The notes below the pieces were generated by a model. That model was not told the DNA's origin. It worked only from the letters and a program-made list of their open reading frames with translations, and made no database searches. A program made the translations under genes and the position numbers. 63,656 nt of DNA from an uncultured Clostridia bacterium (lineage in GTDB: Bacteria; Bacillota; Clostridia; Oscillospirales; Acutalibacteraceae), in contig CANQFC010000008.1 of assembly GCA_947598155.1 (NCBI GenBank), positions 1 through 63,656 on the forward strand, written 5' to 3'. Positions 58,586 through 61,928 of this stretch are shown here, in pieces; the first letter of the stretch is position 1, and every line of letters starts with the position of its first letter.

Positions 58586-58614
58586 TCCCCGAAAAACATA
58601 ATACACATATATAA

Positions 58615-58649
58615 AAATTCGCCCCGCAAATTTGCGGGGCGAATTTTTC
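58615..58649 (+). terminator. Strong terminator after purA
   Basis: AAATTCGCCCCGCAAA followed by its perfect reverse complement, then TTTCA. Since the T-rich flank exists on both sides, it may also end the minus-strand LRR transcript. Confidence 0.95.
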
Positions 58650-58679: not shown

Positions 58680-58796
58680 TTAACCGAACCATTTATCCGT
58701 TCCGTCGTCCGGGTCAAAATCGCCTATTGAAAGTGTAATAATATCTTCAACTTCATAAACGGTAACGTCGAAGTCGGGCTTTAAATATTTACTCAT
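58680..58796 (-). CDS. 38-aa acidic peptide downstream of the LRR gene
   Basis: M-SKYLKPDFDVTVYEVEDI then ITLSIGDFDPDDGTDKWFG. The ATG at 58796 is preceded by GAGAGGGGATACATT, a good ribosome binding site, and lies 17 bases past the LRR stop codon on the same strand, so the two genes should share an mRNA. No signal peptide or TM. The KP.FDV..YEVEDIIT part resembles, from memory, a common type of small ORF in Clostridia with a conserved N-terminal KP..EV...DDVIT motif. Some such ORFs look like peptide precursors, but no modifying enzyme is seen. Function unknown. Confidence 0.7.
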   Translation of the reverse strand: MSKYLKPDFDVTVYEVEDIITLSIGDFDPDDGTDKWFG

Positions 58797-58812
58797 AATG
58801 TATCCCCTCTCA

Positions 58813-61470
58813 TTAGTCCTTAGGCATATATGCGCTGTAAAGAGTGTTAAATTCCGTCATGGCAACATCGTCAAAATAATAATAAACACCGTTGCAGTAA
58901 ACATATCCAAGAGCATATACGCTTTGCTCTTTATCCGCGTCGGGAATATCGGAAATAAGGCAAGTAAAAATGTAATCCGCGCCGTCGCCCGCGTGCTGAA
59001 TATATTTTACCGGCTTTTTGATATAGTTTTCATCTGTGATACGGCCCTCGGCTACCGCTTTGGCTGTCTCAATGTCAAATTCGTCAACATTAGCCGCCGA
59101 GGCATATACAAAGCCTATATCCCCTATTTTTTGAACCGCCGTTTCCTCTATTCCGAAAGATTTAATAAAATCTTGCTGTGAAATTTTGGCAACTGTCCTT
59201 ACGTCGAACGCTCCTTTGTAATTAGCTTTACTGCCGTCGGCGCCGATGCCGTGGAACCTTATCTGCGATTTGCTGTATTGAACCACCGAGTCCAAAGGAA
59301 TGAATTTGTAGGACTCTTCTTTAGCATAGGTTTCGGCATAAGAACCGCGATAACCGTAAATTATGAAATTTTCTTCCTCAACATTAACAAAAGCCCAATC
59401 TCCAATACTTGTCACGCTGTTAGGTATTGTTATGCTTTCAAGCGATGTGCAGCCATTGAAAGCCAAGGTGCCAATACTCGTTACGCCTTCGCAAATCTCC
59501 ACGTTTGCAAGCGATGTACAATCTTCAAAAGCATTGGATCCAATATCCGTCACACTGCCGGGTATAGTTATGCTTTCAAGTGATGTACAGCCATTGAAAG
59601 CCTCTACTCTAATGCTCTTTACGCCTTCGGGTATAGTTACGCTTTCAAGCGATGTACAGTTATTGAAAGCATCGTCTCCAATGCTCGTTACGCCTTCGGG
59701 AATGTCATAAGAAACGTCCGGCTTTCCGGCGGGATATTGTAATAATTCTTTTTGGGCTTTATCAAACAGAACTCCGTTTTTACTGCTGTAAACCGTATTG
59801 CCCTCTGACACATCAATGTCTGTAAGCGATGTACAACCTGCAAAAGCATCGTATCCAATATCCGTCACGCTGTCGGGTATTGTTACGCTTTCAAGCGATG
59901 TACAGTAATAGAAAGCCAAGGTGCCAATACTCGTTACGCCTTCGGGAATTTCTACGTTTGCAAGCGATGTACAGCCATAGAAGGCCTGTTCTCCAATGCT
60001 CGTCACGCTACCGGGTATAGTTACGCTTTCAAGCAATGTACAACCTGCAAAAGCCCCGTCTCCAATGCTCGTTACGCCTTCGCAAATTTCCACTTTTGCA
60101 AGTGATGTACAACCTCCAAAAGCATAGTATCCAATATCCGTCACGCTGTTAGGAATTGTCACGCTTTCAAGTGATGTACAGCAATAGAAAGCCTGGTCTC
60201 CAATGCTCGTTACGCCTTCGCAAATCTCCACGTTTGCAAGCGATGTACATTGAAGGAAAGCTCTTTCTCCAATACTTGTCACGCTGCCTGGTATAGTTAC
60301 GCTTTCAAGCGATGTACAGCCAAAGAAAGCCTCTTCTCCAATGCTCTTTACGCCTTCGCAAATTTCCACGTTTGCAAGCGATGTACAATCTCCAAAAGCA
60401 TCGTATCCAATATCCGTCACGCTGCCAGGTATTGTTATGCTTTCAAGCGATGTACAGTTATTGAAAGTATCGTCTCCAATGCTCGTTACGCCTTCGGGAA
60501 TTTTTACGTTTACAAGCGATGTACAGCCATAGAAAGCCTGTTCTCCAATGCTCGTCACGCCTTCGGGAATTTTTACGTTTACAAGCGATGTACAGCCATA
60601 GAAAGCCTGTTCTCCAATGCTCGTCACGCCTTCGGGAATGTCATAAGAAACGTCTGACTTTCCGGCGGGATATTGCAGTAATTCTTTTTGGGCCTTATCA
60701 AACATAACTCCGTTTTTACTGCTATAAACCGTATTGCCCTCCGAAACATCAATATTTGTAAGTGATGTACAACCTACAAAAGCCGCGACTCCAATGCTCG
60801 TTACGCCTTCGCAAATCTCCACGTTTGCAAGTGATGTACAGCCTGAGAAAGCTCTGTTTCCAATGCTCGTCACGCTGTTAGGTATTGTTACGCTTTCAAG
60901 CGATGTACAGCCAAAAAAAGCGTATTCTTCAATGCTCGTTACGCCTTCGGGAATATCATAAGAAACGTCCGGCTTTCCGGCGGGATATAGCAATAATTCT
61001 TTTTGGGCTTTATCAAACAGGATCCCGTTTTTACTGCTGTAAACCGTATTTCCCTCCGACACATCAATATTTGTAAGTGATGTACAACCTAAAAAAGCCG
61101 CGTATCCAATGCTCGTTACGCCTTTGGGAATTTCTACATTTGCAAGCAATGTACAATATCCGAAAGCCGTGACTCCAATACTTGTCACGCTGTCGGGTAT
61201 TGTTATGCTTTCAAGTGATGTACAGAAAAGGAAAGCCCGATCTCCAATGCTCGTTACAGTGTACCCTCCAAGCTCTGAGGGAATATCCAGATTGCTCTCA
61301 TTGCCGTAATAATTGGTAATTACGCAAGTTTTCTCATCTTCTGACAGAACTTCATACTCAAAATCTCCGCTGACGTCGGCAAAAACCGTCACCGATTCTA
61401 TCGGTATTAAAGAAATTAACATCAGCACAGACAGAAAAACCGATAAAATTTTCCTTGATTTTTTGTTCAT
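58813..61470 (-). CDS. BspA-like secreted leucine-rich-repeat protein
   Basis: 885 aa. A signal peptide (residues 1-31, VTVFADV) is followed by roughly 27 LRR_5 units of about 23 residues (consensus GVTSIG..AF..CTSLESVTIP) from about residue 45 to 720. Three interruptions share a 50-residue insert (IDVSEGNTVYSSKNGxLFDKAQKELLxYPAGKPDVSYDIPE). The C-terminal 150 residues form a non-repeat domain (SQIRFHGIGADGSKANYKGAFDVRTVA...) without an anchor motif, so the protein is probably secreted. BspA-like proteins bind host or microbial surfaces. Promoter at 61625-61653, with an operator over its start site. Confidence 0.93.
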   Translation of the reverse strand: MNKKSRKILSVFLSVLMLISLIPIESVTVFADVSGDFEYEVLSEDEKTCVITNYYGNESNLDIPSELGGYTVTSIGDRAFLFCTSLESITIPDSVTSIGVTAFGYCTLLANVEIPKGVTSIGYAAFLGCTSLTNIDVSEGNTVYSSKNGILFDKAQKELLLYPAGKPDVSYDIPEGVTSIEEYAFFGCTSLESVTIPNSVTSIGNRAFSGCTSLANVEICEGVTSIGVAAFVGCTSLTNIDVSEGNTVYSSKNGVMFDKAQKELLQYPAGKSDVSYDIPEGVTSIGEQAFYGCTSLVNVKIPEGVTSIGEQAFYGCTSLVNVKIPEGVTSIGDDTFNNCTSLESITIPGSVTDIGYDAFGDCTSLANVEICEGVKSIGEEAFFGCTSLESVTIPGSVTSIGERAFLQCTSLANVEICEGVTSIGDQAFYCCTSLESVTIPNSVTDIGYYAFGGCTSLAKVEICEGVTSIGDGAFAGCTLLESVTIPGSVTSIGEQAFYGCTSLANVEIPEGVTSIGTLAFYYCTSLESVTIPDSVTDIGYDAFAGCTSLTDIDVSEGNTVYSSKNGVLFDKAQKELLQYPAGKPDVSYDIPEGVTSIGDDAFNNCTSLESVTIPEGVKSIRVEAFNGCTSLESITIPGSVTDIGSNAFEDCTSLANVEICEGVTSIGTLAFNGCTSLESITIPNSVTSIGDWAFVNVEEENFIIYGYRGSYAETYAKEESYKFIPLDSVVQYSKSQIRFHGIGADGSKANYKGAFDVRTVAKISQQDFIKSFGIEETAVQKIGDIGFVYASAANVDEFDIETAKAVAEGRITDENYIKKPVKYIQHAGDGADYIFTCLISDIPDADKEQSVYALGYVYCNGVYYYFDDVAMTEFNTLYSAYMPKD

Positions 61471-61601
61471 ATGGTCATCTTCTCCTCCGTAAAATATTAT
61501 TCATATATTTACCGACGCTTTATTTTACCACGCAAAAACGCCGATTTCTATACTCTGTCAGCATACACTTGGAAAGTTTTTTAAAATATTCTTCTTCGAT
61601 T

Positions 61602-61619
61602 TGCACCTATATAGGTGCA
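61602..61619. promoter_or_regulatory. Operator O1: 18-bp perfect palindrome at the LRR gene start site
   Basis: TGCACCTATATAGGTGCA. It begins six bases past the -10 box of the minus-strand promoter, so it covers the predicted +1 of the LRR transcript. A related site lies at 61672-61689, centre-to-centre distance 70 bases. Confidence 0.8.
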
Positions 61620-61624
61620 TAAAT

Positions 61625-61653
61625 ATATTATCATACGATTAAAATATTGTCAA
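61625..61653 (-). promoter_or_regulatory. Sigma-A promoter of the LRR gene
   Basis: TTGACA (61648-61653), a 17-base spacer, and TAATAT (61625-61630) on the minus strand. Flanked on both sides by operator-like palindromes. Confidence 0.9.
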
Positions 61654-61671
61654 GAAATTTTTGTGCCTATT

Positions 61672-61689
61672 TAGGTGCATTATTAGTCG
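61672..61689. promoter_or_regulatory. Operator O2: second copy before the XRE gene
   Basis: TGTGCCTATTTAGGTGCA matches O1 in 15 of 18 positions. It lies nine bases before the XRE start codon and upstream of the LRR promoter -35 box. Confidence 0.75.
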
Positions 61690-61697
61690 GTGATAAT

Positions 61698-61928
61698 ATG
61701 AATGCAAATTATGAAAAACAATTTGGAAAAAATATCCGTGAAATTCGTGAAAGCAAAAATATGACTCAGGAGCAATTAGCCGCTAAATTGCAAGTTAACG
61801 GCTGTGACATTACAAGAAGTGCAATCGCAAAAATTGAAGTCGGTCAACGCCACGTTTACCCCGATGAAATTAAACTTATAAAAGAGGTTTTGGAAACTAC
61901 TTTTAATAAAATGTTTTACAGTATATGA
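61698..61928 (+). CDS. XRE-family regulator divergent from the LRR gene
   Basis: 76 aa: little more than a helix-turn-helix (FGKNIREIRESKNMTQEQLAAKLQVNGCDITRSAIAKIEVGQRHVYPDEI). The frame extends to 61647, but that part covers O2; ATG 61698 with GGTGAT upstream is the likely start. Position between two matching palindromes makes it the probable repressor of the LRR gene and of itself. Small size and operator pattern resemble phage-type or toxin-antitoxin-type repressors. Confidence 0.85.
   Translation: MNANYEKQFGKNIREIRESKNMTQEQLAAKLQVNGCDITRSAIAKIEVGQRHVYPDEIKLIKEVLETTFNKMFYSI

Follow-up and report, generated by a model that had tools for sequence, protein, structure and literature searches.

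A predicted secreted protein and a probable LPP-like peptide precursor beside an XRE regulator with paired palindromes in an uncultured Clostridia bacterium

The window analyzed here is the whole stretch of 63,656 nucleotides of contig CANQFC010000008.1 (assembly GCA_947598155.1, an uncultured Clostridia bacterium of the Acutalibacteraceae), and we describe three adjacent genes in it, located between the purine genes purA and guaA: a large leucine-rich-repeat (LRR) gene, a gene for a 38-aa peptide, and a small regulator gene. The LRR gene (58813..61470, minus strand) encodes a BspA-type, predicted secreted protein of 885 aa, with LRR_5 repeats (PF13306, E 2.2e-174), an N terminus that resembles a signal peptide when judged by eye, and a C-terminal domain (CTD). 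The peptide gene (58680..58796, minus strand, stop codon included) starts 16 nt past the LRR stop codon, preceded by the Shine–Dalgarno sequence GAGGGG; because the gap is only 16 nt, the two genes probably share a transcript. Divergently, on the plus strand, lies the gene of a 76-aa XRE/Cro-type regulator (61698..61928; HTH_3, E 6.4e-11; 13 further strong homologues). A promoter-like site for the LRR and peptide genes, TTGACA-17-TAATAT with TG before the -10 element (61625..61653, minus strand; consensus match only), sits between two palindromes, the candidate operators O1, a perfect 18-bp palindrome TGCACCTATATAGGTGCA (61602..61619), and O2, TGTGCCTATTTAGGTGCA (61662..61679), which differs from O1 at three positions; the expected start point falls inside O1. 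A preliminary description of this DNA had pointed out the large secreted minus-strand protein, the peptide, the tiny divergent regulator, the two matching palindromes around the promoter, and the position between two purine genes, and all are present as described; of the terminators said to delimit the unit, the one on the purA side is seen as a terminator-like stem that separates purA from the peptide gene (58613..58648, listed on the plus strand), while the terminator scan lists none downstream of the XRE gene. Because the purA-side stem is A/T-symmetrical, it is predicted to be usable in both directions.

The 38-aa open reading frame (ORF) is, judging from its paralogues and from selection, a real conserved gene. 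Two paralogues are found in its own genome (E 2.9e-16 and 1.1e-6), on contigs C3 (79% identity to the window peptide, behind a 387-aa protein without LRRs) and C5 (51% identity, behind a subtilase-LRR protein), and dN/dS between the window and C3 peptides is 0.13/1.05, indicating purifying selection. The family comprises 75 peptide matches in 35 of the 39 genomes of the genus. Short ORFs are frequent (81 of at least 25 aa in 7 kb), but given this family and dN/dS of ~0.13, the notion of a chance ORF is refuted by conservation and selection, and we give it practically no credence. In a phylum sample of 398 genomes, the peptide is matched (E 0.001) only in its own genome, G525, and G077, so few that, in its present form, the family belongs largely to the genus; with an earlier peptide model of narrower scope, six genomes from other genera were matched more weakly. 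The 45 members scanned fall into no Pfam or NCBIfam family; single members at E 0.094 and 0.069 are regarded as noise.

All 69 distinct peptides, counted without one truncated peptide and exact duplicates, contain YxxP (YLKPDF in the window peptide); because a P-x-hydrophobic pattern had been used for trimming, only Tyr is the independent part of this count. Thr at Y+17 is seen in 60 of the 69, Ser at Y+19, a candidate phosphorylation site, in 56, and Trp within the last eight residues in 62. The family thus contains the YxxPx[hydrophobic] motif by which precursors of linear polyphosphorylated peptides (LPP) bind a RiPP (ribosomally synthesized and post-translationally modified peptide) recognition element (RRE), and the YxxPxF start is similar to leaders that PqqD-type RREs bind. 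From conservation and comparison with LPP leaders (PMC13381572), residues 1–21 (58734..58796, minus strand), with YxxPxF, are predicted to be a leader, presumably cleaved at T21; residues 22–38 (58683..58733, minus strand), acidic, with Trp near the C terminus and the predicted phosphorylation site S23, would, by their conservation, function as the core. No signal peptide is apparent on the peptide itself. A second, tandem peptide is present in 8 of the 31 loci that come from named records. G002 (L263) seems to have a divergent peptide, which was recognized by motif only and is left out of the counts. The whole unit of CTD protein, peptide A, and peptide B occurs twice in tandem, as near-identical copies ~3.4–3.8 kb apart, in L086 and L088 (G012:C1, G019:C12). 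A small ORF in L280 (G036:C12, 7614–7784, minus strand), ~1.5 kb from a PqqD gene, encodes a Cys-rich YxxP peptide with the core GSGCGCDVPDC, perhaps of another RiPP type.

Directly upstream, 52 of the 75 genus peptides have a match to the CTD (residues 728–885, 58816..59289, minus strand), the portion of the LRR protein common to other peptide-associated proteins, defined by identity to the C3 protein, by the genus matches, and by a structural model; the link between the peptide and a large secreted protein proposed in the preliminary description is thereby supported. The remaining 23 peptides lie, in part, behind proteins of the subtilase type, at contig ends, or as orphans. Over its last 155 residues, the 387-aa C3 protein shares 64% identity with the C-terminal end of the LRR protein. 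The CTD profile yields 46 matches in 32 of the 39 genomes, with a peptide 15–399 nt downstream (match coordinates) of 40 of the 46, a count that is inflated because the profile was seeded from 34 proteins chosen for preceding a peptide, all 34 being among its 46 matches. The first CTD alignment leaves out ten loci whose upstream ORF is not a CTD protein, and one of two identical copies is also omitted; alignment A2 leaves out twelve more loci with a distant or absent CTD, including L099 and L105, which do match.

No Pfam family corresponds to the CTD. An AlphaFold2 model of residues 720–885 has a mean pLDDT of 94.6, but no PDB entry matches it down to the threshold of E 0.001; beta-sandwiches, CBM21 and C2 among them, come closest (E 0.01–0.1, TM ~0.3–0.4), and since they are below significance, no function was drawn from this likeness. 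LRR_5 repeats are present in only 5 of the 33 peptide-associated CTD proteins scanned, a selection of ours from the fetched regions. The genome itself contains eight ORFs above the LRR_5 cut-off, of which only two (on C8 and C5) are followed by a peptide. A tie of the peptide to the LRR repeats is hence rejected, and the CTD, rather than the LRR part, appears to be the more constant partner of the peptide.

Candidates for maturation of such a precursor are found in the genus and, in a few loci, beside the peptide itself. PqqD (PF05402) is matched in 36 of the 39 genus genomes, and an HprK-like kinase gene adjoins a discrete RRE of this type in 32 of 40 fetched PqqD regions, including that on contig C6 of the own genome, and additionally in six cis loci. 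In G027, G023, G034, G035, and the distant G525, the genes are arranged as CTD protein, peptide(s), HprK-like kinase, PqqD, SpI-like peptidase, ABC exporter. In both further genomes of the phylum sample, a peptide is located upstream of HprK, PqqD, and SpI, at 30 nt (G525) and 716 nt (G077). In G525, the C terminus of the upstream protein is a homologous CTD (hhalign probability 94.6, E 7e-8), its exporter gene is followed by a nucleotidyltransferase gene (NTP_transf_5, PF14907, E 2.4e-59), and its operon thereby equals the full LPP gene set A-K-B-S-D-N as given in PMC13381572. A few kb upstream of the G525 operon, a radical SAM enzyme is encoded (L176:11347-12789, minus strand; PF04055, E 7.8e-23), preceded by a very Cys-rich 104-aa ORF. 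The SpI-like peptidase is present in the six cis loci, and in the other 39 PqqD regions it is matched at E < 1e-50 in 15 and more weakly in two more. The HprK alignment has no matches among PDB sequences and finds 11 loci in 8 of the 398 phylum-sample genomes; of six loci opened, those of G326 show small YxxP ORFs beside two kinase genes, G176 shows none, and three are unresolvable. The G326 ORFs (L291, L295), YxxP ORFs of another kind, lie just upstream of the HprK-like genes, two of them in tandem in one case.

These loci bear on an alternative in which the peptide stays unmodified in the cytoplasm, e.g., as a secretion chaperone or a regulator of the CTD protein, and the HprK/PqqD neighborhood is incidental. 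The tight adjacency to the CTD gene in 52 of the 75 cases, the lack of an apparent signal peptide, and the fact that most copies are not beside kinase or RRE genes in the fetched stretches, including seven regions from five of six other-genus genomes in which neither HprK nor PqqD was found, would all fit such a role. However, the six cis loci, both phylum-sample genomes among them, pair the peptide with HprK, PqqD, and SpI in LPP order, YxxP is invariant, and copies also occur without a CTD gene; we regard the alternative as unlikely.

In the own genome, a cluster on contig C6, in trans to the window, consists of consecutive HprK-like, PqqD, ABC, and Wzz/BY-kinase genes, and no peptide gene was found beside it. 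Its exporter combines ABC_membrane and ABC_tran (L247:9157-10797), with MsbA-related NCBIfam models below the cut-off. One genus RRE has a match in the solved LppB chain 9x8z (E 1.2e-4). All 46 RREs aligned, which are not all of LPP type, have Asp where LppB has D70, its contact to the leader Tyr; the N33 position is kept in 38 of the 46. A precursor that depends on an RRE could also give a product of a different class, either a lasso peptide or a conjugate of peptide and capsular polysaccharide. This would agree with the Wzz/BY-kinase gene adjoining the own operon, with the genus RRE matching the lasso RRE TbiB1, and with the occurrence of RRE and HprK-like kinase genes in lasso clusters as well, as reported in PMC7533575 and PMC13381572. 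Yet inspection by eye of the ORFs in the 19-kb own region revealed no recognizable lasso cyclase or B2 peptidase, and the paeninodin leaders in the latter source carry WxxP, not YxxP; we consider another product class distinctly unlikely.

The regulator is, by its distribution, separate from the peptide. Among 13 other strong XRE homologues (E < 1e-20, one with an in-frame stop), paired palindromes (at most 6 of 18 mismatches, similar spacing) are found at ten loci, one site at one, and none at two, whereas single-site shuffles give the same result in 3–12 of 200 cases; the conservation of the operators in relatives is thereby supported. In the own genome, no third site with at most two mismatches to TGCACCTATNTAGGTGCA exists in 2.1 Mb (none also for the reversed-pattern control), and viral contigs gave no match. 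At 11 of the 13 other loci (the L163-L175 set), a divergent ORF starts at a distance of ~80–140 nt. Judged by eye, these ORFs are of about ten kinds, and two of the ORFs look related; some of them we take to be lipoprotein-like, membrane, DUF1540-like, and methylase-like proteins. The XRE of G018, 96% identical to that of the window, faces a protein of 392 aa that looks secreted and has no more than a CBM_X2 match below threshold. Neither peptide nor CTD occurs in any of the 13 other XRE regions, and no member of the XRE family in the 65 fetched peptide and/or CTD regions outside the window, where the best stray HTH match has E 1e-5; the fetched regions span 3–19 kb, and some are cut by contig ends. 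Taken together, XRE and the paired TGCACCTATATAGGTGCA-type palindromes (61602–61928) appear to constitute a separate, portable regulatory unit, used on many kinds of genes.

The same counts, which answer the refuting condition set in the preliminary description, bear on its claim that the LRR, peptide, and XRE genes form one movable, self-contained surface-protein cassette. The three genes do lie side by side, and the 3.3 kb that they occupy between purA and guaA has no counterpart in relatives. In 12 of 29 purA loci of relatives examined, guaA starts ~14–118 nt after purA; in seven relatives compared in detail, the coding ends align on both sides of the gap; and in G002, the nearest relative by purA (94% identity), the gap is 495 nt. 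We infer that the block was gained here, not lost in relatives. However, the XRE was never found together with the peptide or CTD in the other fetched regions, its near-identical G018 homolog faces a different protein, and no mobility gene was seen by eye among the ORFs listed around the locus, terminal repeats not having been searched for; the cassette is hence rejected as highly improbable. A 222-aa ORF directly follows purA in L212, L213, and L215 (G010, G009, G011), with guaA next in G009, and the purA-guaA gap may be a recurrent insertion place.

The reading that we favor, with reasonable but far from full confidence, is that the locus is a two-gene operon of a secreted CTD protein and an LPP-like RiPP precursor under a portable XRE/double-operator switch, the precursor being matured in trans; of the roles offered in the preliminary description for the peptide (partner, signal, or precursor), the evidence favors the last. 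In LPP (PMC13381572), LppB binds the YxxP leader, LppK adds phosphates to core Ser3, and LppS, a SipW-like peptidase, cuts after T-1. For the chemistry of the peptide and the purpose of its pairing with the CTD, we infer the following steps. XRE bound to O1 and O2 would repress both divergent promoters. The YxxPxF leader would then bind in trans the discrete PqqD-type RRE from contig C6, which keeps the Asp for the leader Tyr. By analogy with LPP biochemistry, the HprK-like kinase would phosphorylate S23 of the core, the leader would be removed near T21, and the MsbA-like exporter would export the core. Outside the cell, more speculatively, the modified peptide might act with the CTD, as a ligand or as an envelope/capsule anchor.

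Several observations weigh against this reading. CTD matches outside the seed set have a peptide in only 6 of 12 cases, and those not first found via a peptide or a tandem copy in only 2 of 8 (G038, G026); six CTD genes lack a peptide, one of them with 283 nt left to the contig edge, there are peptides that no CTD precedes, and the C terminus of the own C5 subtilase is only weakly CTD-like (hhalign probability 9). The own C6 cluster shows no SpI-like gene, which was not sought elsewhere in the genome, and after its exporter it has the Wzz/BY-kinase gene, not LppN, which was not sought genome-wide. The own HprK-like protein matches no Pfam family, and NCBIfam models only far below the cut-off; the genus RRE matches TbiB1 better (1.8e-5) than LppB, and among solved structures the own RRE matched only PqqD 3g2b (E 7.2e-4).

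A broader possibility, tentative and on balance rather doubtful, is that LPP-type peptides are cofactors of surface proteins: each precursor would be co-expressed with a secreted CTD protein of its own, a single central system of kinase, RRE, and exporter would mature all of them in trans, and the exported phosphopeptide would join or anchor the CTD at the surface. Confidence in both this and the favored reading is lowered because of the seeding of the 40/46 count and of the seven other-genus regions without the machinery. If the broader possibility is true, surface proteins would have a peptide-tagging system, and LPPs a first function. A precursor repeatedly tied to one well-folded CTD of secreted proteins, also in a distant genome, makes a surface role testable; precursors scattered in the genome and matured in trans would be missed by cluster-centered searches; and the portable XRE/operator switch is identified on many different genes.

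Among known systems, the LRR protein resembles BspA-type LRR surface proteins in its secreted LRR_5 repeats, while its CTD sets it apart from them, as do the mostly LRR-free CTD proteins elsewhere. Small XRE/Cro repressors with a divergent target gene are a general kind; the regulator here resembles them as a ~76-aa HTH_3 protein with paired palindromes over divergent promoters, and differs in that one regulator/operator unit faces many different genes. Paeninodin-type lasso peptides share the HprK-like kinase, the discrete RRE, and the exporter; they differ in the WxxP leader, against YxxP in 69 of 69 here, and in the macrolactam synthetase and B2 peptidase, neither of which was recognized here by eye, with no family search. 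Given YxxP, and with no cyclase recognized by eye, a paeninodin-type lasso peptide is rejected.

The closest comparison is with LPP (PMC13381572, Nat Commun 2026; lpp clusters of Bacillota), whose biological role is there stated to be unknown. In the open-access library, the gene set is described only there and a link to surface proteins nowhere; the word "surface" has no occurrence in its main text. Differences from LPP are that most precursors here lie outside the fetched stretch around the machinery, most being behind a secreted CTD protein, that tandem A/B precursors occur, and, as a further point against the favored reading, that the published leader consensus, YxxPxVLxHQxIxFETxxS, is only partly matched: HQ and FE/FET are absent, and T and S are at Y+17/+19 here and at +15/+18 there. 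The likeness consists in a short precursor that starts with a YxxP leader and keeps T and S close to the junction; in the HprK-like kinase, discrete RRE, and MsbA-like exporter; in the SpI-like peptidase, seen in the six cis loci and in 15 further genus regions, and the NTP transferase of G525; and in the capsule-type gene adjoining the own cluster. By analogy, the peptide system would work like LPP, and because the consensus is only partly matched and the own cluster shows no SpI, it is best regarded as a variant, not a strict member.

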